Shown in pieces: positions 5,561 through 28,797 of a stretch of DNA of 41,347 bases (the stretch's first letter is position 1; each line of letters opens with the position of its first letter). The notes under the pieces are model-generated. The model saw only the letters and a list, made by a program, of their open reading frames with translations. It was not told where the DNA came from and searched no databases. The DNA is from Candidatus Berkelbacteria bacterium (GTDB lineage Bacteria; Patescibacteriota; UBA1384; XYA2-FULL-43-10; 1-14-0-10-43-13). The translations under genes were made by a program, and so were the position numbers. The stretch is from the NCBI GenBank assembly GCA_026397135.1, contig JAPLVL010000020.1, positions 17,679-59,025 of the forward strand. The letters run 5' to 3'.

Positions 5561-6487
5561 TTAATTCCTAATTCCTAATTCTTCTAACAGTCTTGACCAT
5601 TCATCCAAGCTCAACTCCTGTGCTCGAACACTTTCATTCAAACCGATTGATTTTATTATATCTGCTGCCAGATTTTTATCAATATGGAAACCAGCACTCA
5701 GATTATTTGCCAGAGTTTTGCGTTTACTAGCAAAACCAATGTGAACAAGATGAAAAAAAGCTTTTTCGTCAACCTTAATTCTTTCTTCTTCCTTCTTTAT
5801 TCTTATTCTCAGTATCGCCGAGTCAACTTCTGGAGCTGGGAAAAATGATTCCTTTGGCACAATATCAATTATCCCAGGATCGCCATAATACTGAATTGAG
5901 ATTGCGAGCACCGACATATCACCAGGCATTGAGCAAATTCGCTCTGCTACTTCCTTCTGTACCAACATTACTATCACGTCTGGCTTATTTTTTGACTCCA
6001 GGAATAGTCGCAATATCTTCGAAGTGATATAGTACGGGATATTTGCCACTACTTTATACTTCTGATTTCCAATCAGTTCTGGAATATTTACAGTCAGAAT
6101 ATCGGAATTAAGGACCGTAAGCGTGTCATTTCGACCCGCCTCGGCAGCAGGCAGGCCACTCGACTTGTCGAGGCTGGAGAAATCTTTTGAAAGATCTCTC
6201 GGCTCCGGTTGGTCGGTCGAGATAACAGAAGATAGAATACTAGCCAATTTCTCATCCTTCTCAATCGCAATCACCTTGCCAACGCGTGAAACTAATTCGG
6301 TCGTCAATGCTCCTAAGCCTGGTCCAACCTCAACCACGGTATCGTTAGGCCCTAATTCTGCAGACTGAATAATTTTTTCCAAAACATCTCTTGAAATCAA
6401 AAAATTCTGCCCCAAACTGTGCTTGGCCCAGAGATTATTTGCCTTCAAATATATAATCAATTGTGATTTATCGGTTAAGTCTACCAT
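5561..6487 (-). CDS. rsmA: 16S rRNA (adenine1518/1519-N6)-dimethyltransferase RsmA/KsgA
   Basis: KHSLGQNFLISRDVLEKII, VVEVGPGLGALTTEL, VANIPYYITSKIL; in-frame repeat inserts. Confidence 0.95.
   Translation of the reverse strand: MVDLTDKSQLIIYLKANNLWAKHSLGQNFLISRDVLEKIIQSAELGPNDTVVEVGPGLGALTTELVSRVGKVIAIEKDEKLASILSSVISTDQPEPRDLSKDFSSLDKSSGLPAAEAGRNDTLTVLNSDILTVNIPELIGNQKYKVVANIPYYITSKILRLFLESKNKPDVIVMLVQKEVAERICSMPGDMSVLAISIQYYGDPGIIDIVPKESFFPAPEVDSAILRIRIKKEEERIKVDEKAFFHLVHIGFASKRKTLANNLSAGFHIDKNLAADIIKSIGLNESVRAQELSLDEWSRLLEELGIRN
6123..6232. repeat. dispersed palindromic repeat inserted in frame in rsmA
   Basis: GTCATTTCGACC...GAGAAATCTTTTGAAAGATCTCTCGG...GGTCGGTCGAGATAAC; encodes DQPEPRDLSKDFSSLDKSSGLPAAEAGRNDT, not typical of RsmA. 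Confidence 0.7.
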
Positions 6488-7953: not shown

Positions 7954-8064
7954 AAATGTGATAATCGGTATCCTCAAAATCAGGCTTCCAAGAAGAACTT
8001 AATACTTAATCCTGACTTCTAACTTCTGATTATTTGTTTCGTAATCCTAACCGAAGCTGCACAA

Positions 8065-9464: not shown

Positions 9465-11594
9465 CTATATAATATCCAGTAAGTGTTCGGGGATATTTTC
9501 GATAAATCGAGATTTTGGATTGCATTGAAAGCGACCATAAATATTGCGCTCGCGAGCATATATTAAATACAATCTCTCCTTTGCACGAGTAATACCGACA
9601 TAAGCCAGCCGTCGCTCCTCTTCCATCTCACTTTGATCCATCAGAGCGCGGCTGTGCGGGAATAGACCTTCTTCGACACCAATGATAAATACAGTATTAA
9701 ATTCCAACCCCTTAGCGGAATGTAGAGTCATGAGCGTCACGACACCTTCATTGTCTGCAATCTGATCAGTATCCTGAACTAGTGCAACTTGCTGAAGAAA
9801 CAGCTCAAGCGGACTTTCGGAATTAGAGTTTTCTGCGTCGCCGGTTTCGGTTTCAATTTGTTCTGCTACAGTTACCAACTCCTGGATATTCTCCCACCTC
9901 GCCTCTCCCTCTGGAGTACCGTCAAGTAAATAATGCTTGAACCCTGTCCTTGTGGCAATTTCCAAAATAAGTTGATCAAGCGAATGAGTCGCAGAATAGT
10001 CTGAAAACCCTTTCAATAATTTGAAAAAAACAGTCACTTTGGGCGGAAAATTCTTACATAATTGCTCGATTATTTCATTGTCCAAACATCCCATTTTGTC
10101 ATCCTCGAGACCAGCGGTGTTCTTGAGAGTGGTGCCCGGGGATCCATGCGGTGTTTCCTGGATTCCCGCCTCCGCGGGAATGACAGAAGTAGTCGAAATG
10201 ACAGAGCGTAAAAATTCAACAATCTTCTGAATCGTTTTCTCGCCAATCCCGCGCACTGGCACTTGGATGCAACGCTCTAGTGCTTCAAAATCTTTGGGGT
10301 TGGCAATCACTCTCAAATAGGCAATCAGATCCTTGATCTCCTTGCGCTCATAGAAGCGCAAACCTCCGACAACCTTATATGGAATCTTGAACCGTAGAAA
10401 AGCTTCTTCAACTGCTCGGGATTGCGCATTTGTGCGGTACAATACTGCAAAATTCCCGTAGCACCTCTCACTTTCATCATTATGGACTTTTAGACTTTGA
10501 ACTAATGACCTTATCTCCATCGTTGTAAACTCAGCCTCATCTTTTTCATTTAGCGCTTCATATACAGTAATCAGTCTCCCTTCGGGATTCTCGGTCCAAA
10601 GTTTCTTGTCTGTTTTGTTTTCGTTGTATTTAATAACTTCATTTGCAGCCTCAAGCACTGTCTTGGTTGAACGATAATTTTGCTCGAGTTTGATTACGAC
10701 CGCATTCTTGTAATCCCGCTCAAAATTCAAAATATTTTTGAAATTTGCCCCTCTCCAGCTGTAAATCGACTGGTAATCATCGCCAACAACCATAATATTT
10801 TTGTTCTTCTCTGCCAATAATTTCGCCCAGAGATACTGCGCCTGGTTTGTATCCTGGTACTCGTCAACCAAAATGTATTTAAATGAATTTTGGTATTTTT
10901 CCAAAATCGAAGGATTTTTCTGAAAGAGAACAACACACTGCATTATCAAGTCGTCAAAATCCATTGCGTTCGCCTGTCGCAAATATCTCTCGTATTTTTC
11001 ATACACTTTGGCCGTGTTCGCCTCAAATGGGGAATTAACGTATTTTTTGTATTCAGTCGGTCCAATCAATTCGTTCTTGGCGCCAGATATGAAATAGGCG
11101 ATCGAGTTTGGATTGAAGTTCTTCGGATCAATGCTCAGTTCTTTCATAATCTTTTTGATTACCGAGAGAGAATCTTGCGAATCATAAATTGTAAAACTCC
11201 TAGTATATCCGACAAAATCCGCCTCACGGCGAAGTATCCTGACACAGATAGAATGAAAGGTTCCAAGCCATGGCAATTTTAATAGTCCAGTCCCAGAGAG
11301 GCCGCCTTCAGGCTTTCGACTTTCGGCCTGCCTTGCCGTCAGGCAGACTTTCGACTTTGAGCTTGCGAGCAAATGGCTGACTCGATCAGACATTTCTCGT
11401 GCTGCCTTATTTGTAAATGTCACTGCCAAAATCTGATACGGTGAAACATGTTTTTCTTCGATCAAATAGGCAATTCGATGCGTCAGGGCTTTGGTCTTGC
11501 CCGAACCGGCTCCAGCCAAAACCAAAACAGGCCCTTCTGTGGCCAGAACTGCCTTTTCCTGCTCTTTGTTTAGATTATCTAGTAATTTGTCCAT
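9465..11594 (-). CDS. pcrA: UvrD/PcrA-type DNA helicase
   Basis: LNKEQEKAVLATEGPVLVLAGAGSGKTKALTHRIAYL, VDEYQDTNQAQYLWA, VTLMTLHSAKGLEF, RRLAYVGITRAKERLYL; two repeat-derived inserts. Confidence 0.95.
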   Translation of the reverse strand: MDKLLDNLNKEQEKAVLATEGPVLVLAGAGSGKTKALTHRIAYLIEEKHVSPYQILAVTFTNKAAREMSDRVSHLLASSKSKVCLTARQAESRKPEGGLSGTGLLKLPWLGTFHSICVRILRREADFVGYTRSFTIYDSQDSLSVIKKIMKELSIDPKNFNPNSIAYFISGAKNELIGPTEYKKYVNSPFEANTAKVYEKYERYLRQANAMDFDDLIMQCVVLFQKNPSILEKYQNSFKYILVDEYQDTNQAQYLWAKLLAEKNKNIMVVGDDYQSIYSWRGANFKNILNFERDYKNAVVIKLEQNYRSTKTVLEAANEVIKYNENKTDKKLWTENPEGRLITVYEALNEKDEAEFTTMEIRSLVQSLKVHNDESERCYGNFAVLYRTNAQSRAVEEAFLRFKIPYKVVGGLRFYERKEIKDLIAYLRVIANPKDFEALERCIQVPVRGIGEKTIQKIVEFLRSVISTTSVIPAEAGIQETPHGSPGTTLKNTAGLEDDKMGCLDNEIIEQLCKNFPPKVTVFFKLLKGFSDYSATHSLDQLILEIATRTGFKHYLLDGTPEGEARWENIQELVTVAEQIETETGDAENSNSESPLELFLQQVALVQDTDQIADNEGVVTLMTLHSAKGLEFNTVFIIGVEEGLFPHSRALMDQSEMEEERRLAYVGITRAKERLYLIYARERNIYGRFQCNPKSRFIENIPEHLLDII
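10130..10203. repeat. dispersed palindromic repeat in frame in pcrA
   Basis: GGATTCCCGCCTCCGCGGGAATGACA; encodes SVISTTSVIPAEAGIQETPHGSPG. Confidence 0.8.
11290..11365. repeat. second palindromic repeat insert in pcrA
   Basis: encodes KSKVCLTARQAESRKPEGGLSG; GCCTGCCTTGCCGTCAGGCAG. Confidence 0.65.
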
Positions 11595-16884: not shown

Positions 16885-17316
16885 CTACTCTTCCTTATCG
16901 TACTGACCAAATGAATTTCTATTTTCGTACTGACCCTTTTTCGGCATTAGTTTGACTGAGATTTTAAACTTTCTAGCAATTCCACTCGCGTCCGGAATCT
17001 CATCAGTATTGTTTTCTTGATAATATTGTGTCAACTCGGCAGAGAGAATATCACGAAGTGTTGTAATCTCGTCAGTATTCGATTTGATGTTGGCCAAAAC
17101 TTCTTGATTTGGTCCCTTACCCAAGATTTCGTCCTTGATTTGTTTTCTTTTCTGAGTTGCGCCTTTGACCTCCTCAGTTGCCTGAAGATAAGTCTCCTCA
17201 TTTTCAAGTTCACCCTTCAGCATCTCCTTCGAGATTCTAACTTCCTCACTCAGCTTCTCCATCTGGTCAATTCTTTTTTGAATTGTTGGCAAATCCATCT
17301 CTCTCCTTTTCTCCAA
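16885..17316 (-). CDS. coiled-coil hypothetical protein
   Basis: heptad-rich charged sequence; long ORF. Confidence 0.6.
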   Translation of the reverse strand: MEKRREMDLPTIQKRIDQMEKLSEEVRISKEMLKGELENEETYLQATEEVKGATQKRKQIKDEILGKGPNQEVLANIKSNTDEITTLRDILSAELTQYYQENNTDEIPDASGIARKFKISVKLMPKKGQYENRNSFGQYDKEE

Positions 17317-17336
17317 TAAACTATATTGCTTAATAC

Positions 17337-18350
17337 TTAATTCTTACTGCCTAATTCTTGCCTTCCTGCCAGCTGCCCGCATGCGCCGGCTATTTCCTCG
17401 CCGAGACTTACACGCAAGGTGACAGGGATGCGATTCTCCAGCAAGACAGTCTTGAATCTCTCAATCTGGTTCCGACTACTGGCCCGAAATCCCGATCCTG
17501 GAATTTCGTTGAAAGATATCAAATTGACCAAGGCAAGCCTGCCTTTCAGAAGCTCAGCTAATTTGTAGGCATGATCTATACTATCATTCTCACCCTTTAA
17601 CATCAAATATTCATAGGTCACCTTCTTGTTCGTCTTGGACACAAATTGATCCAGGACATGCATCAACTCCGAGAGAGGATTAACCTTTGCAATCGGCATT
17701 AATTTTTCTCTCAATTTCTGGTCTGCCGCGTGCAGACTGATCGCCAATGTTGTGCCGGTATCAGACTCAATGAATTGCAAAAGCGGTTTAATGGGGCCGC
17801 AGGTCGAAACGGTAATATGACGACGACCCAGATTGAAGTAATCAGGATTGTTTAATTCACCAATCGCAAATAAAACATTTTGTAGATTAAACAACGGTTC
17901 GCCCATGCCCATGAAAACAACATTCGTCAGCTTTCCGCCTTTGGCTTTTAACTTCCGACTTACAAATAAAACCTGTGAAACAATTTCCCAGGCAGTCAAA
18001 TTGCGTTTGAATCCAATCTGACCAGTAGCGCAAAAAACGCAGCCGGAAGCACAGCCGACCTGAGATGAAACGCAGACAGTATTGCGACCATCGCGAAATT
18101 GCAACAGGACAGTTTCAATAACACAGCCGTCAACCAATACTAGCGCCCACTTGGTCGAACCGTCTTTGGAGACCTGTTCTGATTTGGTTGTGAAGGGTAC
18201 AAGATTGGTCTCTTTCTCAATCATTCCCCTCTCGTATTTGGAAAAAGTGGTCAAGTCCTCCGCCCTTTCGACCAGGTTCACAAAAATGGCAGTCCTAAGC
18301 TGCTTTTGGCGAAGTGATGTCAAATTTTTCAAATATTCATAAAAATCCAC
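17337..18350 (-). CDS. rlmN: 23S rRNA (adenine2503-C2)-methyltransferase RlmN
   Basis: CVSSQVGCASGCVFCATGQIGFKRNLTAWEI, NVVFMGMGEPLFN, VSLGEEIAGACGQLA. Confidence 0.95.
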   Translation of the reverse strand: MDFYEYLKNLTSLRQKQLRTAIFVNLVERAEDLTTFSKYERGMIEKETNLVPFTTKSEQVSKDGSTKWALVLVDGCVIETVLLQFRDGRNTVCVSSQVGCASGCVFCATGQIGFKRNLTAWEIVSQVLFVSRKLKAKGGKLTNVVFMGMGEPLFNLQNVLFAIGELNNPDYFNLGRRHITVSTCGPIKPLLQFIESDTGTTLAISLHAADQKLREKLMPIAKVNPLSELMHVLDQFVSKTNKKVTYEYLMLKGENDSIDHAYKLAELLKGRLALVNLISFNEIPGSGFRASSRNQIERFKTVLLENRIPVTLRVSLGEEIAGACGQLAGRQELGSKN

Positions 18351-18356
18351 AAACGT

Positions 18357-18422
18357 TTACCCTTACTCCTTACTCCTTACTTCTTACTTCTTACTTCTGA
18401 ATCCTTGCTGCTTAATCTTGAT
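18357..18422. repeat. heptanucleotide repeat tract (GAAGTAA/GGAGTAA)
   Basis: minus strand: GATTAA GCAGCAA GGATTCA GAAGTAA GAAGTAA GAAGTAA GGAGTAA GGAGTAA. Confidence 0.85.
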
Positions 18423-19818
18423 CCGTTCTCTGTTTTTCCAAATCATTGAATCTCATTTGACTTGGGTTGAAGAAAAGCTCAACATTAGCAGTTGGACCAT
18501 TTCTATGCTTGCGAAGTAACACTTCCGTAATTCCTTTGCGATCAGTTTCAGCATTGTAATACTCGTCACGATAGAGAAACATCACAATATCAGCGTCCTG
18601 CTCAATAGAGCCAGATTCACGAAGGTCAGAGAGCTGTGGCCGTTTGTCGTCTCGATGTTCAACCGCACGAGAAAGCTGTGACAGTGCAATCACTGGAACA
18701 TTTAGTTCACGCGCCAGACCCTTCAAACCCCGTGAAATTTCCGAAATTTCCTGAACACGATTTCCGTCGCTACTTCGGGAGTGACCAGACATGAGCTGGA
18801 GATAGTCAATAATAATTAAACCAAGTCCGTGCTCCATTTGCAAACGACGAGCTTTGGCACGGATCTCCATCACATTTGCACTCGGAGTGTCATCGATGAA
18901 AATTGGCGCTTCAGAGAGTACACCCATAGCGTAGCCAATCTTGGGAAAATCATCATCGGAAAGATTTCCAGTTCGCAATTTCCAGGAGTCAACTGCCGCC
19001 TGCGACGCAAGCAAACGGTCAACCAACTGATCTTTGCTCATCTCCAGAGAGAAAACCGCCACAGGAACTTTGTTATCGATAGCCGCATTCTCAGCCAAAT
19101 TCAAAGCGAAGGAGGTTTTACCCATTGCAGGACGAGCAGCCAGAATTATAAGATCAGAGGGATTGAAACCGGCAGTAATTTTGTCCAAGTCACGGAAGCC
19201 AGAGCTGACGCCACGAATTGCCCCTTTGTCTTTGTCCTTGTGAATCTTGTCGATACGGTCGAAAGCATCAGTCAAGATATCCTTGATCGGAATAAATTTG
19301 TTTTTTTGTGAGCTCTGCGAAACAGAAAAAAGCCGTTGCTCCGCCTTGTCCAATGTCTCCGCTACATTTCCTTCTTCGTCGTAGCCAAACTCAGTAATAT
19401 CAGCTCCGGCAGATACGAGACGACGCAATAGCGCTTTTTCCCGAACTATTTGCGAGTAATAGACGATATTGGCCGCTGATGGCGTCGAGTTGACAATGTC
19501 AGCCAGATAACTGGAGCCACCAACTTCCTCGATCTGGTTCGCACTCTCCAAAACCTCAGACAGGGTCACAATATCGATAGGCATCCGCTTCTCGAAAAGC
19601 ATTGCCATAGCATTATAAATCAAGCCGTTGCGATTGTCGTAGAAATCGTCAGCCTGAATAATGTCTGCCATTTTGATAATAGCGTCCTTGTCGATCAAAA
19701 TAGCGCCGAGAATACTTCTCTCAGCCTCAACATTTTGTGGCGGCATTCGCAAAGTCGAGGTCGCAGACCCGCCCTCATGTTTCTTCTCAAATTGTGATTT
19801 TTTTTCTTGACGAGGCAT
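18412..19818 (-). CDS. dnaB: replicative DNA helicase DnaB
   Basis: PPQNVEAERSILGAIL, AARPAMGKTSFALNLAENAA, IIIDYLQLM, LSQLSRAVE. Confidence 0.96.
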   Translation of the reverse strand: MPRQEKKSQFEKKHEGGSATSTLRMPPQNVEAERSILGAILIDKDAIIKMADIIQADDFYDNRNGLIYNAMAMLFEKRMPIDIVTLSEVLESANQIEEVGGSSYLADIVNSTPSAANIVYYSQIVREKALLRRLVSAGADITEFGYDEEGNVAETLDKAEQRLFSVSQSSQKNKFIPIKDILTDAFDRIDKIHKDKDKGAIRGVSSGFRDLDKITAGFNPSDLIILAARPAMGKTSFALNLAENAAIDNKVPVAVFSLEMSKDQLVDRLLASQAAVDSWKLRTGNLSDDDFPKIGYAMGVLSEAPIFIDDTPSANVMEIRAKARRLQMEHGLGLIIIDYLQLMSGHSRSSDGNRVQEISEISRGLKGLARELNVPVIALSQLSRAVEHRDDKRPQLSDLRESGSIEQDADIVMFLYRDEYYNAETDRKGITEVLLRKHRNGPTANVELFFNPSQMRFNDLEKQRTDQD

Positions 19819-19821
19819 TTA

Positions 19822-19925
19822 TACAGGATTAAGAATTAAGGATTAAGGATTAAGAATTAAGAAGTAAGGATTCAGAATCAAGAATTAAGAAGCAAGAAGT
19901 AAGCAGTAAGTATTATGGATTAGGC
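19822..19925. repeat. degenerate heptanucleotide tandem array (GRATTAA/GAAGTAA)
   Basis: GGATTAA GAATTAA GGATTAA GGATTAA GAATTAA GAAGTAA GGATTCA GAATCAA GAATTAA GAAGCAA GAAGTAA GCAGTAA. Confidence 0.9.
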
Positions 19926-19973: not shown

Positions 19974-20135
19974 CTAAACTTCAAAGACTTCGCCAACCGC
20001 CTTTTCCAGTTCTGTCGGATCAACTTCTTTGCCTTTTGGCTTCTCGTTCGCGATAATGCAAATGACTCGATGAGGACTACCCATCAAATTGCCAACAGTT
20101 TTCTCCAGGATATCAAGATTTTTCTTCTCTGAAAT
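19974..20135 (-). CDS. DnaX-like C-terminal segment in the -1 frame relative to dnaX
   Basis: ISEKKNLDILEKTVGNLMGSPHRVICIIANEKPKGKEVDPTELEKAVGEVFEV*; open only from 20135. Confidence 0.6.
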   Translation of the reverse strand: MSEKKNLDILEKTVGNLMGSPHRVICIIANEKPKGKEVDPTELEKAVGEVFEV

Positions 20136-21445
20136 TTAACCGGCACAGGTACAGATTCAATACACTCTTGGGCTAACGAATCTTCGGAGACTTGAACTGG
20201 TTCGTCCATGACGGGAACAGCCGCCTCCTTTTTCGTGGTTTCCGGGATCGGACTTTCGAGAACAGCCGCCGCTGATCTGCTGACAGATTTAGAAACGACA
20301 ACCTGGCCGGAGTTTGCTTGCACGTTCACCGGCTGCGGCTTGACACTCTCGCCTGCCGTCGCTTCGATCAGTGCAATCTCTATTGGCAAGACCGGATAAG
20401 CTACATCCTTCAGCATTTTTCCCGACTGCACGAAAATATCAATCATCCGCAAAATCGTGTCTCGATCGGCCTTTTGGCTAAGAGCTTTGATCTCAGCACG
20501 ATCATCCTTGGGCAAATCTTCACTGCTCTTGCCAGTAACCTCGGCAATCAAAATCTGTCGCAATGTTTCGATAACCCGACGATTGAATTCACTCATGTCA
20601 AAGCCTTTGTCAAAAAGTTCGTGGGCGATTTTTAATCCCTCCTCCGGAAAGTTATCAAAAATCGCCCCCACAAACTTAATTACTGACAATGTTTCGGCAA
20701 TTCCCAGAATTTCTCTCGTAATATCAGAAGTCACCTTGTCGCCTTTTTGGGATGAAACTTGTTCGAGCAAAGAGAGTGCATCTCTGTGCCCACCGGCAGC
20801 CGATAACGCAATCAGCTCGAGTGAAGCATCATCAATTTCAATTTTCTCAGCTACTGCCACTCTCTTCAGGTTTTCAATCAAATCAGCCTTGTCTGCGCGG
20901 CGAAAATCATAACGCTGAGCCCGTGACAGGATAGTGGCCGGAATTTTGTGTGATTCTGTCGTAGCCAAGATAAAAACAACATGCAGAGGCGGCTCCTCCA
21001 GTGTTTTGAGTAGTGCATTGAAAGCACTCTTCGATAGCATATGAACTTCATCAATGATATAAACCTTTTTCGACATTCTGGTCGGCTGAAGTTTGGCTTT
21101 TTCGATCAAATCTCTGACATCATCAACTCCAGTATGCGAGGCCGCATCGATTTCAATTACATCAATCGCCCGCCCCTCGTTTATGGCAATACAATTCTCA
21201 CACTCGTTACAAGGTTCACCACTGTATTCAGTCTTGTTTTTCCTGGCTTCAACAGTCTTCTCGCAATTGATTGCCTTGGCCAAAAGACGAGCAGTCGAAG
21301 TCTTGCCGATCCCACGCGGCCCAGTCAGCAGATACGCATGAACTAGACGGTCGGCTTTGATGCTGTTCAACAAAGTTAGAACAACATGTTTCTGCCCAAC
21401 CATCTCGCCAAATGTCTTTGCCCTGTATTTTTGATAAAACGCCAT
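20084..21445 (-). CDS. dnaX: DNA polymerase III subunit gamma/tau, zero-frame product
   Basis: MAFYQKYRAKTFGEMVGQKHV, LLTGPRGIGKTSTARLLAKAINC, zinc-binding CNECENC, VYIIDEVHMLSKSAFNALLKTLEEPP. Confidence 0.93.
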   Translation of the reverse strand: MAFYQKYRAKTFGEMVGQKHVVLTLLNSIKADRLVHAYLLTGPRGIGKTSTARLLAKAINCEKTVEARKNKTEYSGEPCNECENCIAINEGRAIDVIEIDAASHTGVDDVRDLIEKAKLQPTRMSKKVYIIDEVHMLSKSAFNALLKTLEEPPLHVVFILATTESHKIPATILSRAQRYDFRRADKADLIENLKRVAVAEKIEIDDASLELIALSAAGGHRDALSLLEQVSSQKGDKVTSDITREILGIAETLSVIKFVGAIFDNFPEEGLKIAHELFDKGFDMSEFNRRVIETLRQILIAEVTGKSSEDLPKDDRAEIKALSQKADRDTILRMIDIFVQSGKMLKDVAYPVLPIEIALIEATAGESVKPQPVNVQANSGQVVVSKSVSRSAAAVLESPIPETTKKEAAVPVMDEPVQVSEDSLAQECIESVPVPVKFQRRKILISWRKLLAI

Positions 21446-21772
21446 AACACCAGAATTAAGAATAAAGAAGTAAGAAGCAAGCAAATGTTCGTCTGATACT
21501 TACTGCTTGCTCATTATAAGTTGATTTCAAGGGAGAAAAAATGCCTTGCGAGAAGTATCAAATTTATCAAGTCCCACACTGATAACTAAAAACTAATTAC
21601 CAAAAACCGTCCTGTTATCCCCAGCCAATCCCCAGAGTTGTGAACAAGCAGACCCAGCGAAATAGCTTGATTCTTAATCCTTAATTCTAAGCACTAGTGA
21701 TTTATTTCCGCTTTTTTCGGATCTTTATTGCCTTTTTCCGGCACTAAATATATAATAAAATAAAAGGAGAAA

Positions 21773-23929
21773 ATGAATCGCGAAGAACTTGCAAAGGCAA
21801 TCGCCAAAAAGGCAAAAATCGGCACCAAGACAGCTGACCGTATTATCGGCGCTTTTGGCGAAGCAATCACCGAAGCTCTGAAAAAGAAAGACCGCGTCAT
21901 TTACTCAAACTTTGGAGCCTTCTATACAGTTCACTATCCATCCAAAGTAATTTTGCACCCCACCCTTGGCGAGAAAAAGAAAATGATTATGCCGCCAACC
22001 GATGTCGTCAAATGGATGCCATCAGGAAACATCAAAGAGCTAGTAAGCGGTACTGCCAAACTTGAGCACATTACCAGTTTTGGCTCAGCCAAACGTCTCT
22101 ACGAAAGCCAGGATCCCGAGACCAGAATCGCAAAATCACACGAAGTAGACGATCAACCCACTTTGAAAAAGTCAGCTCCAGAAGACGAGACTTATGATAT
22201 TCCGATCAAGGTTAAGTCCCCAAATTCCGTTCAGAACCATCAAAGTGTCTTTGGCGACGCAGAAGAAGTAAATCCGGATGAGGAAGTCGCTATTCCGATT
22301 CACCTGATGAGGAAGAAACCCTCCGATATTATTCCTATCCCTGATCTCGATGAAGAGCCTGATCACAATTCAGAAGACAACATTTCAGATGAAGAAGGCG
22401 ATCTCGTCGCTGTCTCCAAATCTACGCCTGCCTTTATTGATTTACAGAATTATATTATTCCACACCAAATCTTGGCCCTAATGCCTGAACTCTTCGCCAG
22501 ACATTTCAAGATTGTACCGATCGGCGGAGACGAACATGAACTAATCGTTGCAATGACAGACCCTGACGACAAGGAGACAATCGAGCTGGTCCGTCGTCTC
22601 ACAGGCAAGAAGATATCAGTTCACCTGACAGACGAAGTTGGCCTGCAATCCATCTATGAGCAATACCAAAGCCTCAACAATCGTGAACAGACAGTCTGGG
22701 AGCATGCCTTTGACAACGAAATGATCTCGAACAAGACAAGCAAAACCGCCCCGATAATCCGAATCGCCGCATCTCTCGTCAAAAACGCCATCCGCGATCA
22801 TGCAACCGAAATTCACGTCGAGCCGCAAGGTAGCGAGATTCAAATTAGATTTCGAATCGAAGGAATACTGAAGAAGAACTCTGCATTCCCCAAAGAGATA
22901 GGCTTGACCTTAGTCAAAGTACTGAAAGATCTCTCCGGACTCAAGGGCAACGCCGAAGGACTTCCCCAAGACGGACAACTTCGTTTCCGTCTTGGCAACG
23001 AGGAATTCGATTTTCTAACCCATTCGATTCCGACGGCAGAGGGCGAGAAATTGTATCTCAAGATGATCAGCAAACTCCCGAAGCTTTACTCTCTTGAGGA
23101 CCTCGGGCTAGAAGAGGCTGATTATCAACTCATCCAACAAAATTTACGCAAAACTACCGGCCTAGTGTTAATAATCGGCTCAAAAAATTCAGGCAAGACA
23201 AGCACGGTTTACTCCTTTTTGCGAAGTCTCTTGGCCAATGTCATCAACATCTCGACAATCGAAGACCCGATCGAGGCTAAAATTCCTGGAATCAACCAAA
23301 GTCAAGTCAATACTTCTATCGGTTTTGATTTGCGCTTAGGCCTCGACACAATAATTAAGCAGTCCCCCGACGTTTTGTATATCAGTAGCCTCACCGACAA
23401 GAAAATTGCAGAGCAGGCTCTTCTAGTCTCCCAAGACTGCCTAGTCATAACTACTTTGGAAGCTGCCACCGTACCCGAAGCACTAACCAAAATGATAAAT
23501 TGGGGAATCGATCCTCTACTTTTGGAAAGTTGCCTAAACCTAATCACTCTCGAACATCTAGTGCGCCGAAACTGTGAAAGCTGCAAGAAAGAAATGACCC
23601 CGAGCGATCTCGAGGTCAAATCAATTCGCGATGAAGTTGCCAAAATGTCCTCCCGAGACCAATCCTTTATTCACAAGATGAGACTCCATTTTTTCAAAAG
23701 CGAAGGCTGCTCCGAATGTGGAAAATCCGGATACCGCGGACGCTTTGCCGCCTTTGAGATAATCGAGCCTACTCATGAGTTTATCGAAATGGCCCTAAAC
23801 CATAAATCACCGGGACTTTTCTGCGATTATTATCGTACGCACAACCTCAAATCCTTGCGACAAGATGCACTACTCAAAGCTCTCACAGGCTATACTTCAC
23901 TTGCAGAAGTCTGGAAGATACCTGAATAG
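21773..23929 (+). CDS. HU-like DNA-binding domain fused to PilB/GspE-type ATPase
   Basis: MNREELAKAIAKKAKIGTKTADRIIGAFGEAITEALKKKDRVIYSNFGAF then HVEP, IGSKNSGKTSTVYSF, ISTIEDPIE, CESCK...CSECGKSGYRGR; AAGGAG SD. Confidence 0.88.
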   Translation: MNREELAKAIAKKAKIGTKTADRIIGAFGEAITEALKKKDRVIYSNFGAFYTVHYPSKVILHPTLGEKKKMIMPPTDVVKWMPSGNIKELVSGTAKLEHITSFGSAKRLYESQDPETRIAKSHEVDDQPTLKKSAPEDETYDIPIKVKSPNSVQNHQSVFGDAEEVNPDEEVAIPIHLMRKKPSDIIPIPDLDEEPDHNSEDNISDEEGDLVAVSKSTPAFIDLQNYIIPHQILALMPELFARHFKIVPIGGDEHELIVAMTDPDDKETIELVRRLTGKKISVHLTDEVGLQSIYEQYQSLNNREQTVWEHAFDNEMISNKTSKTAPIIRIAASLVKNAIRDHATEIHVEPQGSEIQIRFRIEGILKKNSAFPKEIGLTLVKVLKDLSGLKGNAEGLPQDGQLRFRLGNEEFDFLTHSIPTAEGEKLYLKMISKLPKLYSLEDLGLEEADYQLIQQNLRKTTGLVLIIGSKNSGKTSTVYSFLRSLLANVINISTIEDPIEAKIPGINQSQVNTSIGFDLRLGLDTIIKQSPDVLYISSLTDKKIAEQALLVSQDCLVITTLEAATVPEALTKMINWGIDPLLLESCLNLITLEHLVRRNCESCKKEMTPSDLEVKSIRDEVAKMSSRDQSFIHKMRLHFFKSEGCSECGKSGYRGRFAAFEIIEPTHEFIEMALNHKSPGLFCDYYRTHNLKSLRQDALLKALTGYTSLAEVWKIPE

Positions 23930-23962
23930 CAAAAAGCTCCGATTTTCGGAGCTTTTTGCTTA
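23929..23962. terminator. bidirectional intrinsic terminator
   Basis: AAAAAGCTCCGATTTTCGGAGCTTTTT. Confidence 0.9.
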
Positions 23963-23972
23963 TACTTTTGAA

Positions 23973-24371
23973 CTATTTCTTCACATGACTCAAGCTTAGA
24001 GATTTTTCGATCGCCTCGATCAGATTTACTGGAACAATTTCGCTTTTGACCAAATATTGATCTTGGTCACTCATCAAACTCTTCAGCTTATTGATTTCCT
24101 GAACGAGCGCTGTCAAGAGAATAATAGGGATACCTGATATTTCCTTGTCGCTATTCTCACGAACACGCTTCATGACATCGATTCCATTCATCTTGGGCAT
24201 CATAATATCCAAGATTATGATATCCGGTTTTTCTTTTTCTGCTTTTTCCAGTGCCTCTTCTCCGTCAAATGCATTTACAATCGAATAACCTTCAGCCCCA
24301 AGACGCTCTGCATACATTTCATGCAAGGTTATATCGTCGTCAACAACAAGCACCTTGGCCGATTTTGCCAT
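23973..24371 (-). CDS. response regulator receiver protein
   Basis: KVLVVDDDITLHEMYAERLGAEGY, PDIIILDIMMPKMNG, IPIILLTAL. Confidence 0.9.
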   Translation of the reverse strand: MAKSAKVLVVDDDITLHEMYAERLGAEGYSIVNAFDGEEALEKAEKEKPDIIILDIMMPKMNGIDVMKRVRENSDKEISGIPIILLTALVQEINKLKSLMSDQDQYLVKSEIVPVNLIEAIEKSLSLSHVKK

Positions 24372-24490
24372 ATTCCTCCTCAATTTAAAATACTCGTAGT
24401 TCAAGCTTCAGCTTGTTGGTTCTATTCGCATCTTGTCGCAAAGGATACAAACTAAAGTTTGAACTCCGCTCTTGGGTGAAATCTTAATTG

Positions 24491-25522
24491 TTATTGTCCG
24501 GCATTGTAAATCACGAATTTATAAAGATCATACATTGTCCCACTCTTGCGGTCAATTTTTGCCTGCATCGTCCGAAGTGTGCCACCAAAATAGCCTGTCG
24601 AATTGATAGTGGTAAAAGGCCCCGGCACAACAGTTTGATTTGTCATATCACAAGCAGTATTCTGACATTTTGTTGAAATCAGCCCGAACTGGACATCATA
24701 ATAAATAGGCGTAATCTTTAGCGTTATTTCACTCCCAAGTGGAACTCCTAGAGGATACAGTCCAGTCAGAATCTGAGTCAAGGAAAAACTCCGGTTTGCA
24801 ATGCTTGCGTCGACAGTGCTGAAATTATCAGGATTTCCATCAGAATTGAAAACTACATTCTTCCGAGAAGACATCCCGCTCGAATCGATAGCTTCGACAA
24901 TGACTCTGGCATTGGCAGTTAAGTCAGCTGAATCAATCGCGGAATCATATTTGAAAAATGCACTTAAATCATTTGACACATTCACGAAAGTTGACGGCAA
25001 TCTCACCGTCAGAGTTTGGTCATGATCAATCTTGAGTATAGGTTTGTTCACGCCATAACTAGTGTCGAGGATATCTCCGATCAATAAATTCTCATCGCTA
25101 TTAATATCTTGCCCGTAAAACGGGGATTCGTCGATTCCATTGCCGAGATAACCCATCCGGAGATCGTAATATTGTTTCGAAGGATCACTAATCGTGCTTG
25201 TATTCTTGTTTATACCTTTAAAATCAATTATCGAGCTGCCGGTTATTTCAATTTCGCCCGCAAGATCGGCTCGAAAAACGGAGGAGTTGTCCTTCAGTTT
25301 CCAAGTATCGAAGGGCACCGACGAAAAATCGGAATATCGATAGCGCAAAAGCCCTTCCTCGATCCCAGATTCAGCCGCATAGTATGAGCCGACACCATTT
25401 TCATAGACCGAAGCGTTATTCGCCTCCAGAATTAAAATACGGCCAAAAGAAAAAGCGATCGTGCCGATTGCCGTCACCAACAAAATTGCGATAATTATTG
25501 CGGAGCCTCGCTCTCTCTTCAA
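24491..25522 (-). CDS. PilX-like pseudopilin/minor pilus protein
   Basis: RERGSAIIIAILLVTAIGTIAFSFGRILILEANNASVYENGVGSYYAAESGIEEGL. Confidence 0.7.
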   Translation of the reverse strand: MKRERGSAIIIAILLVTAIGTIAFSFGRILILEANNASVYENGVGSYYAAESGIEEGLLRYRYSDFSSVPFDTWKLKDNSSVFRADLAGEIEITGSSIIDFKGINKNTSTISDPSKQYYDLRMGYLGNGIDESPFYGQDINSDENLLIGDILDTSYGVNKPILKIDHDQTLTVRLPSTFVNVSNDLSAFFKYDSAIDSADLTANARVIVEAIDSSGMSSRKNVVFNSDGNPDNFSTVDASIANRSFSLTQILTGLYPLGVPLGSEITLKITPIYYDVQFGLISTKCQNTACDMTNQTVVPGPFTTINSTGYFGGTLRTMQAKIDRKSGTMYDLYKFVIYNAGQ

Positions 25523-27388: not shown

Positions 27389-28753
27389 TTAGTTTAATTT
27401 GCGATCCATTTCTGGAACAACGCGGAGGCGTTGTTCTATCATTTCCCAGCTCTCTTCACCCTTAAACAAACCGTACTTTTGCCAGACTTTTTCTCGCTCA
27501 CGATATTTATCGTCGTAAATGGCGTAGGATTTGCAATATTTCTCCGGAGTCAAGTTGAACATCAGTGCGTTTGCTCCGGCAAGCAAACCGAGATGGCGAC
27601 CCTCCAGATCAAGTGTTTCAAGCGCAGTTGTAACCGGTATTTTAATCTCCGGCATCAAAAACCGGGCAATCGCAATATATTTCAAAGTCAATTCCAAAAG
27701 AGTTTCTCTCGTCATTCCCGACCCGATCGGGAATCCATCAGAAATATTGGATCCCCAGGTCATGGCTTCGCCTGCCCGAGGATGACAAGATAGCGGAGTA
27801 TTCTTTGCTAATAAAAAGGGCCCGGCCGAGAGCATCGGTGCCTTCAAACTTTTCATAAAAATCAGATCATCAGCAATACCTCCAATCGTTTGGCCAGGTA
27901 GTCCGAATAGGCTACCTGTCGCCACATAGTAGCCCGTTTTAATTAATTCCTGAATTAGCCTTTTTCGATCATCAAATTTATGACCTGGCCGCATCTTGGC
28001 ATACAATTTTTGGTTGGATATCTCAAAGCGAATTAGTGCACCAGTCGCTCCAGATTCATACGCTTCTTTGTAAAAATCAACACTTCTCTCACCAACCGAC
28101 AGAAATATGAAAACTCTCATTTTCTTTTTGATCTCTCTTACCAGCTGGATCAATTCTGAATCAGAATAATTCTCATCTTCTCCGCTTTGCAAAACGAGAA
28201 GTTTATAACCTTCGTTTTCGACAGCATTCCCGGCGACTTCGACGATCTCCTCAACGCCAAGCCGGTATCGATCAATCCCCTGGTTGTCCTTCCTAATCCC
28301 GCAATAGAGGCAATTGTTCTTGCAGTAATTTGAGAATTCAATAATTCCATGAATACAAACAAAATCTTTGATCCGCTCCTTGCGCAGAGTGTTCGCCTCG
28401 GCATAGAGAGTTTCGAGATTATTCTTGCCTTTCAGACTAAATAAATAAATTATCTCGTCCTTGGTTAAATTTGAATCACCACTTCTGACTTTGTAGATAA
28501 TTTTCTTGAATTTGAGAGAGAGGCGACTGACATCGACTGGGTTATATTTGTCTTCCAACAATGAAATAATTTCCTTGGCGTCTTCCTCCGATATGGCCTT
28601 CACTGCCCTGTTTGTGGCGTAAAGTATCCAATCCCCGGGTTTCACATCAAAAACAAGCGAGAGGTCAATCTGTGCCCTCTCGCGATGAGATATGACAGTT
28701 GCCACACCCTTACTATCTATACTTTCGATTTTTCCAGGAATTGTTAAACACAT
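27389..28753 (-). CDS. HypC-like domain fused to HydE/PylB/BioB-type radical SAM protein
   Basis: MCLTIPGKIESIDSKG...KPGDWILYATNRAVKAISEEDAKEI; IEFSNYCKNNCLYCGIRKDN. Confidence 0.82.
   Translation of the reverse strand: MCLTIPGKIESIDSKGVATVISHRERAQIDLSLVFDVKPGDWILYATNRAVKAISEEDAKEIISLLEDKYNPVDVSRLSLKFKKIIYKVRSGDSNLTKDEIIYLFSLKGKNNLETLYAEANTLRKERIKDFVCIHGIIEFSNYCKNNCLYCGIRKDNQGIDRYRLGVEEIVEVAGNAVENEGYKLLVLQSGEDENYSDSELIQLVREIKKKMRVFIFLSVGERSVDFYKEAYESGATGALIRFEISNQKLYAKMRPGHKFDDRKRLIQELIKTGYYVATGSLFGLPGQTIGGIADDLIFMKSLKAPMLSAGPFLLAKNTPLSCHPRAGEAMTWGSNISDGFPIGSGMTRETLLELTLKYIAIARFLMPEIKIPVTTALETLDLEGRHLGLLAGANALMFNLTPEKYCKSYAIYDDKYREREKVWQKYGLFKGEESWEMIEQRLRVVPEMDRKLN
27711..27795. repeat. dispersed palindromic repeat in frame in the radical SAM gene
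   Basis: GTCATTCCCGACCCGATCGGGAATCCATC...CCCGAGGATGACA; encodes SCHPRAGEAMTWGSNISDGFPIGSGMT. Confidence 0.8.
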
Positions 28754-28797
28754 ACACAAAAGTTAAATGTTAAAAGTTAAATGTTAAAAATTAAAGA

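Follow-up and report, generated by a model that had tools for sequence, protein, structure and literature searches.

The window analysed here, a stretch of 41,347 nucleotides, carries divergently from dnaX a gene whose product joins an HU-type domain to a type IV pilus (T4P) assembly ATPase, an arrangement that we call HU-PilB (Table 1). An earlier note on this DNA had described one reading frame of 718 amino acids with its own Shine-Dalgarno sequence, beginning with an HU/IHF-like domain and continuing as a PilB/GspE-like ATPase, and all of these features were recovered: the frame is unbroken, it is preceded by AAGGAG, and its domains were recognised by profile as well as by fold. In Pfam, the HU profile PF00216 matched residues 1–91 (E 2e-15, 57.2 bits against a cut-off of 22.4), MshEN residues 221–300 (E 3e-12, 46.9 bits) and T2SSE (PF00437) residues 323–713 (E 2e-66, 224.5 bits against a cut-off of 24.9). 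The solved structures nearest by sequence were those of PilF/PilB, and the N-terminus was matched by standalone HU proteins. An AlphaFold2 model of the protein, built from a six-sequence input (mean pLDDT 69), showed HU topology over residues 1–91, with two N-terminal helices, a beta saddle with an arm and a C-terminal helix (pLDDT about 56–85), disorder between residues 93 and 217, and a core whose best structural matches were Thermus PilF and Geobacter PilB (E 3e-40).

The locus is shared with the relatives. In what follows, f1 is the GTDB family of the window, represented by the window genome (G000), G001 and G002, and the other numbered families belong to the same GTDB class, a group of ultra-small (CPR) bacteria that includes Ca. 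Berkelbacteria. On the 3' side of HU-PilB lie a receiver gene, also found at the locus in G001, G002, G009 and G045, and a gene that had no match in Pfam and was identified as PilX-like by its N-terminal segment and position; these two genes are leftovers of a pilus operon. No pilC adjoins HU-PilB at any of the f1 loci, the window included.

Table 1. Features of the HU-PilB locus and repeat arrays, in window coordinates.
Feature	Position	Strand	Remarks
dnaB	18412..19818	-	adjoins dnaX in the conserved locus
dnaX	20084..21484	-	divergent neighbour, conserved in relatives
Shine-Dalgarno AAGGAG	21764..21769	+	from sequence
HU-PilB pseudo-ATPase gene (predicted)	21773..23929	+	718 aa, single uninterrupted ORF
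HU/IHF domain, residues 1–91	21773..22045	+	Pfam, AlphaFold2 model, alignment, charge
Disordered linker, residues 92–220	22046..22432	+	pLDDT <50 for residues 93–217; two short IPI-K/H motifs by motif scan
N1D/MshEN-like domain, residues 221–300	22433..22672	+	Pfam
N2D of PilB core	22739..23068	+	Pfam and fold match; both arginine-finger positions replaced
RecA-like ATPase domain	23069..23917	+	predicted catalytically dead; motifs and fold match
Walker A GSKNSGKTST, residues 469–478	23177..23206	+	retained; lost in G001 and G002
Asp box TIEDPIE, residues 495–501	23255..23275	+	Mg-coordinating Glu retained
Degenerate Walker B/catalytic site ISSLTD	23381..23398	+	GEIRD elsewhere
Degenerate His box TTLEAATV	23450..23473	+	STLHTNDA elsewhere
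Tetra-cysteine zinc site, CESC 601–604 and CSEC 646–649	23573..23719	+	retained
Hairpin terminator AAAAAGCTCCGATTTTCGGAGCTTTTT	23931..23957	+	from sequence; directly 3' of the HU-PilB ORF
Single-domain response-regulator receiver	23973..24404	-	Pfam
PilX-like pseudopilin, pilus-operon remnant	24491..25522	-	N-terminal pilin-type segment and position
Heptamer arrays	4–84, 416–448, 864–958, 5753–5805, 7998–8050, 17315–17367, 18348–18414, 19810–19924, 21437–21474		CTTA[AC]TT

Active-site motifs and the HU domain

The motifs of the motor half were as the note had read them, with Walker A, the Asp box and the CxxC pair present and Walker B and the His box degenerate; the loss goes further, to both arginine-finger positions. 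In the window protein the catalytic Glu after Walker B is replaced by Ser539 (GEIRD to SSLTD), the His of the His box by Glu (LHTND to LEAAT), and the equivalents of R271 and R286, the arginine fingers, by Gln402 and Leu415, while the Lys and Thr of Walker A are still in place. The roles of the PilB residues, the arginine fingers included, which are invariant in the family, were taken from PMC5424180. On the strength of the lost residues the motor half is predicted to be a non-hydrolysing pseudo-ATPase. In the other two f1 members Walker A is also gone, and the four zinc cysteines are kept in all three. With Geobacter PilB (5TSH) and Thermus PilF (5OIU) the window protein shares N1D, N2D, the RecA-like fold, Walker A, the Asp-box Glu and the tetra-cysteine zinc site, at 29–32% identity; unlike the PilB/GspE ATPases, it carries the HU domain and a disordered linker of about 125 residues in front, and has neither the catalytic Glu, the arginine fingers and the His box nor a PilC partner gene.

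With the HU/IHF nucleoid proteins the N-terminal domain shares PF00216, the topology of helical body and arm, and Pro63, which by comparison by eye with HU of B. stearothermophilus was equated with the canonical intercalating proline, and which is invariant across six aligned members of f1, f3 and f4. It differs from standalone HU in being fused to a PilB core and in the arm, which has the motif YPSK..xHP and is poorer in arginine than canonical HU. The net charge of the window HU is +8, within a range of +7 to +11 in f1, and both arms and basic charge are kept in f1–f4 and f18–f21. The f6 domains have a reduced arm or none at all, with a net charge of −7 in one member, and in f25 the match to the fold is partial; thus, the fold can persist without DNA binding. 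A linker motif, IP[IV][KR], was set aside as a conserved element, as it occurs only in f1, f8, f9 and one member of f23.

HU-PilB and its losses across the class

The survey of the architecture proposed in the note found the fusion in the two other f1 genomes and in many genomes of the same class. A pilB paralogue divergent from dnaX-dnaB, with HU and an intact core, is present in f3, f4, f5, f6, f9, f18, f19, f20, f21 and f25, and the profile search gave 21 genomes outside f1, in about ten families, with HU-bearing intact homologues; the tested representatives of f5, f6, f9 and f18–f21, and G053 of f25, passed the Pfam gathering cut-off, which G054 of f25 did not reach. Outside the class, none of the HU matches listed (E to about 7e-10) lay in an open frame of more than 148 aa, among 380 genomes that sample the phylum evenly and with a profile search that a very divergent HU-PilB could escape. 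The note had allowed that the N-terminus might not match HU profiles or that the fusion might be an assembly artefact absent from relatives; PF00216 is passed, and the recurrence of the architecture across many genomes rules out an assembly fusion. We found no description of HU-PilB, or of any pilus or secretion assembly ATPase with a nucleoid-protein domain, in the open-access literature searched. One short contig of G009 (L048, C27) holds two tandem PilB-like matches, at about 5.7 and 7.0 kb.

Outside f1 every checked catalytic residue was kept in all the canonical homologues (24/24), and pilC lies directly 3' of pilB in 23 of them, the remaining one running off its contig; pilins and pilM or pilMNO follow where the sequence extends far enough. 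Since the ATPase is normally intact across the class, the pseudo-ATPase is a derived state of f1, and the idea that the fusion as such defines a pseudo-ATPase was discarded. The PilBs of the dnaX locus form one clade in the ATPase tree (support 0.94), in which the f1 sequences reach root-to-tip distances of 1.88–2.78 against 0.37–0.77 in all other members. None of the three f1 members has kept the catalytic Glu, the His-box His or either arginine finger. In f2, and separately in f22/f23, the RecA-like domain is deleted and HU and N2D are left, in proteins of 249–312 aa that stop where N2D would give way to the RecA-like domain; the C-terminal part was clearly assigned to N2D in f2 (41.2, against 27.7 for the best of 100 column shuffles) and more weakly in f22/f23 (26.6 against 23.5). 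An AlphaFold model of this HU+N2D form, based on few sequences, had a pLDDT of 40 and was set aside. At all ten HU+N2D loci pilC is absent next door.

The organism tree, made from two genes (DnaX+DnaB) with FastTree supports, placed f1 as sister to the canonical f4 (0.99) and f2 as sister to f1+f4 (0.99), with f22/f23 remote. From this topology, motor death in f1, the deletion in f2 and that in f22/f23 were three separate events. The opposite loss is seen in f8, sister to f22/f23, where HU is lost and the motor is intact: in two genomes (G025, L132; G026, L133) a dnaX-linked pilB-pilC operon without HU is present, and the sister lineage kept HU and lost the motor. These reciprocal losses, which show the roles of the two halves to be separable, amount to a natural dissection of the purpose of the DNA-binding-type domain. 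DnaB itself bears inteins at the same locus in G046 (L091:2939-5575) and G005 (L040:9570-11396), one with a LAGLIDADG endonuclease and one a mini-intein, and split dnaB matches in G006, G043 and G050 suggest further ones.

HU has been retained under constraint. Among the intact motors of f3/f4 identity is 41–58% for HU and 63–74% for the core, and in comparisons within f1 and of f1 with f3/f4 this order is inverted, with 39–66% for HU and 23–47% for the core. Between the two f2 copies compared by YN00, a method in which dS was saturated for most pairs, dN was 0.17–0.25 outside the linker, against a saturated dS.

Possible roles of the protein

The window genome (1.14 Mb, 98% complete) encodes a canonical T4P on contigs C47/C34, comprising PilT, PilC, pilins, a prepilin peptidase and a PilB that is divided between two contig ends, and a further canonical PilB on C35, near rnpA-dnaA, which answers the note's question about a second canonical PilB. 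Given this separate pilus with PilT and the other canonical PilB, the window protein is not the only extension motor of the cell, and most likely not an active one. A PF00216 search of the same genome found no HU besides the fusion. The suggestion that this is its only HU was dropped, as G000 lacks, besides the standalone HU gene (hup), also the genes for RNase Y (rny) and YmdB, which lie next to hup in G001, G008 and G009; a missing block, through an assembly gap or loss, explains the absent hup.

The protein goes back to a second T4P operon, one without PilT (pilB-pilC-pilins-pilMNO beside dnaX-dnaB), whose assembly ATPase had HU joined to it through a long flexible linker. A plausible analogue is T4P-2 of TM7x, a cultivated member of the Saccharibacteria (pilB2/pilC2/pilMNO2, no pilT), like the operon of the relatives a second pilus of a CPR bacterium without a retraction ATPase, which serves host binding and is dispensable for motility and competence; in the accessible part of its description (PMC12206443) neither an HU domain nor linkage to dnaX is mentioned, and in the window lineage the operon is dismantled. 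The fact that the motor is dead or deleted and HU kept in three lineages suggests that the protein gained a job beyond pilus building. We propose, with confidence evenly balanced, that this HU-tagged motor was retained as a scaffold for DNA binding or regulation through HU. In the family of the window the pilus operon was lost, and the protein would have stayed on as a non-hydrolysing, putatively oligomeric scaffold. Its PilB core, possibly still ATP-binding in the window genome only, would keep several HU domains in one assembly; so grouped, these may attach to DNA and bridge it, which would make the protein an architectural or regulatory factor whose action ATP binding possibly tunes. A non-motor role has a precedent in Myxococcus, in which regulation is still exerted by a PilB variant with defects in both ATP hydrolysis and pilus assembly (PMC5544727), although that variant is an artificial mutant with no DNA-binding domain and the window protein is a naturally dead motor with HU. 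Against the scaffold count the arm arginines, below those of canonical HU, the arm-less or partial HU of f6 and f25, and the loss of HU with the motor kept in f8. The subject also touches on the control of multiple pilus systems in CPR bacteria, whose regulators are few and whose contact with the host depends on T4P.

The HU fold could instead be a module for dimerisation or docking, through which PilB subunits pair up or another protein, such as the neighbouring receiver, is brought in. This is possible but somewhat unlikely, and such a non-DNA role is kept in play mainly by the missing or reduced arm of f6 and its acidic member. HU is found in all but a few members of the class even so, the receiver gene accompanies the locus in five genomes, and Pfam domains of the CCDC81 HU-fold type match these HU domains weakly (with the window protein, the CCDC81 HU profile gave 17.3 bits, below its cut-off of 26); the arms and basic charge described above, and the intercalating proline position kept in f1, f3 and f4, argue against it. 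It is unlikely that HU-PilB serves as a chromosome-tethered pilus motor, in whose active form six HU domains on flexible tethers would link the pilus base to DNA and whose DNA-bound half would be useful alone; if so, the position or activity of the pilus would be coupled to the nucleoid, and the HU half would have outlived three motor losses as a chromosome-associated regulator.

That the gene is a decaying pseudogene of the lost operon, in which HU has lasted by mere chance, seems very improbable to us. The disappearance of pilC and most pilus genes, and the ATPase motifs more eroded in G001 and G002, would fit such decay, but the three f1 frames (690–718 aa) have stayed open in two genera at 1.9–2.8 substitutions per site, HU conservation is normal, the zinc cysteines are kept, the f2 copies compared show the dN given above against a saturated dS, and HU was retained in each of the three independent motor-loss lineages. 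Hardly credible is a part in DNA uptake, HU receiving or pulling transforming DNA at a competence pilus: T4P commonly serve competence and the window genome has comEC, but comEC occurs in 48 of the 55 genomes of the class whatever their HU-PilB state and so does not discriminate, no com gene was found among the window genes or at the relatives' HU-PilB loci, the window copy has no pilC, PilB lies on the cytoplasmic side, the cell has a separate complete T4P with PilT, and the second pilus of TM7x can be spared for competence. The pilus or DNA-uptake link drawn in the note therefore holds for descent from a pilus operon, which relatives with pilC, pilins and pilMNO next door support, and not for uptake.

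Repeats and other open reading frames of the window

Arrays of the heptamer CTTA[AC]TT, mostly intergenic, are frequent in the window genome and all but lacking at the loci of the relatives; they were considered as HU targets, for which we found no evidence. Two further frames, both on the minus strand, were noted. The UvrD-type helicase ORF at 9465–11594 contains in frame the sequence VIPAEAGIQETPHGSPGT, resembling dispersed palindromic repeats entering coding sequence. At 27389–28759, a HypC/HupF chaperone domain is fused in frame to a radical-SAM enzyme (biotin-synthase/HydE-like) according to Pfam, and the same frame also holds a repeat-like insert (...CHPRAGEAMTWGSNISDGFPIGSGMTRE...).
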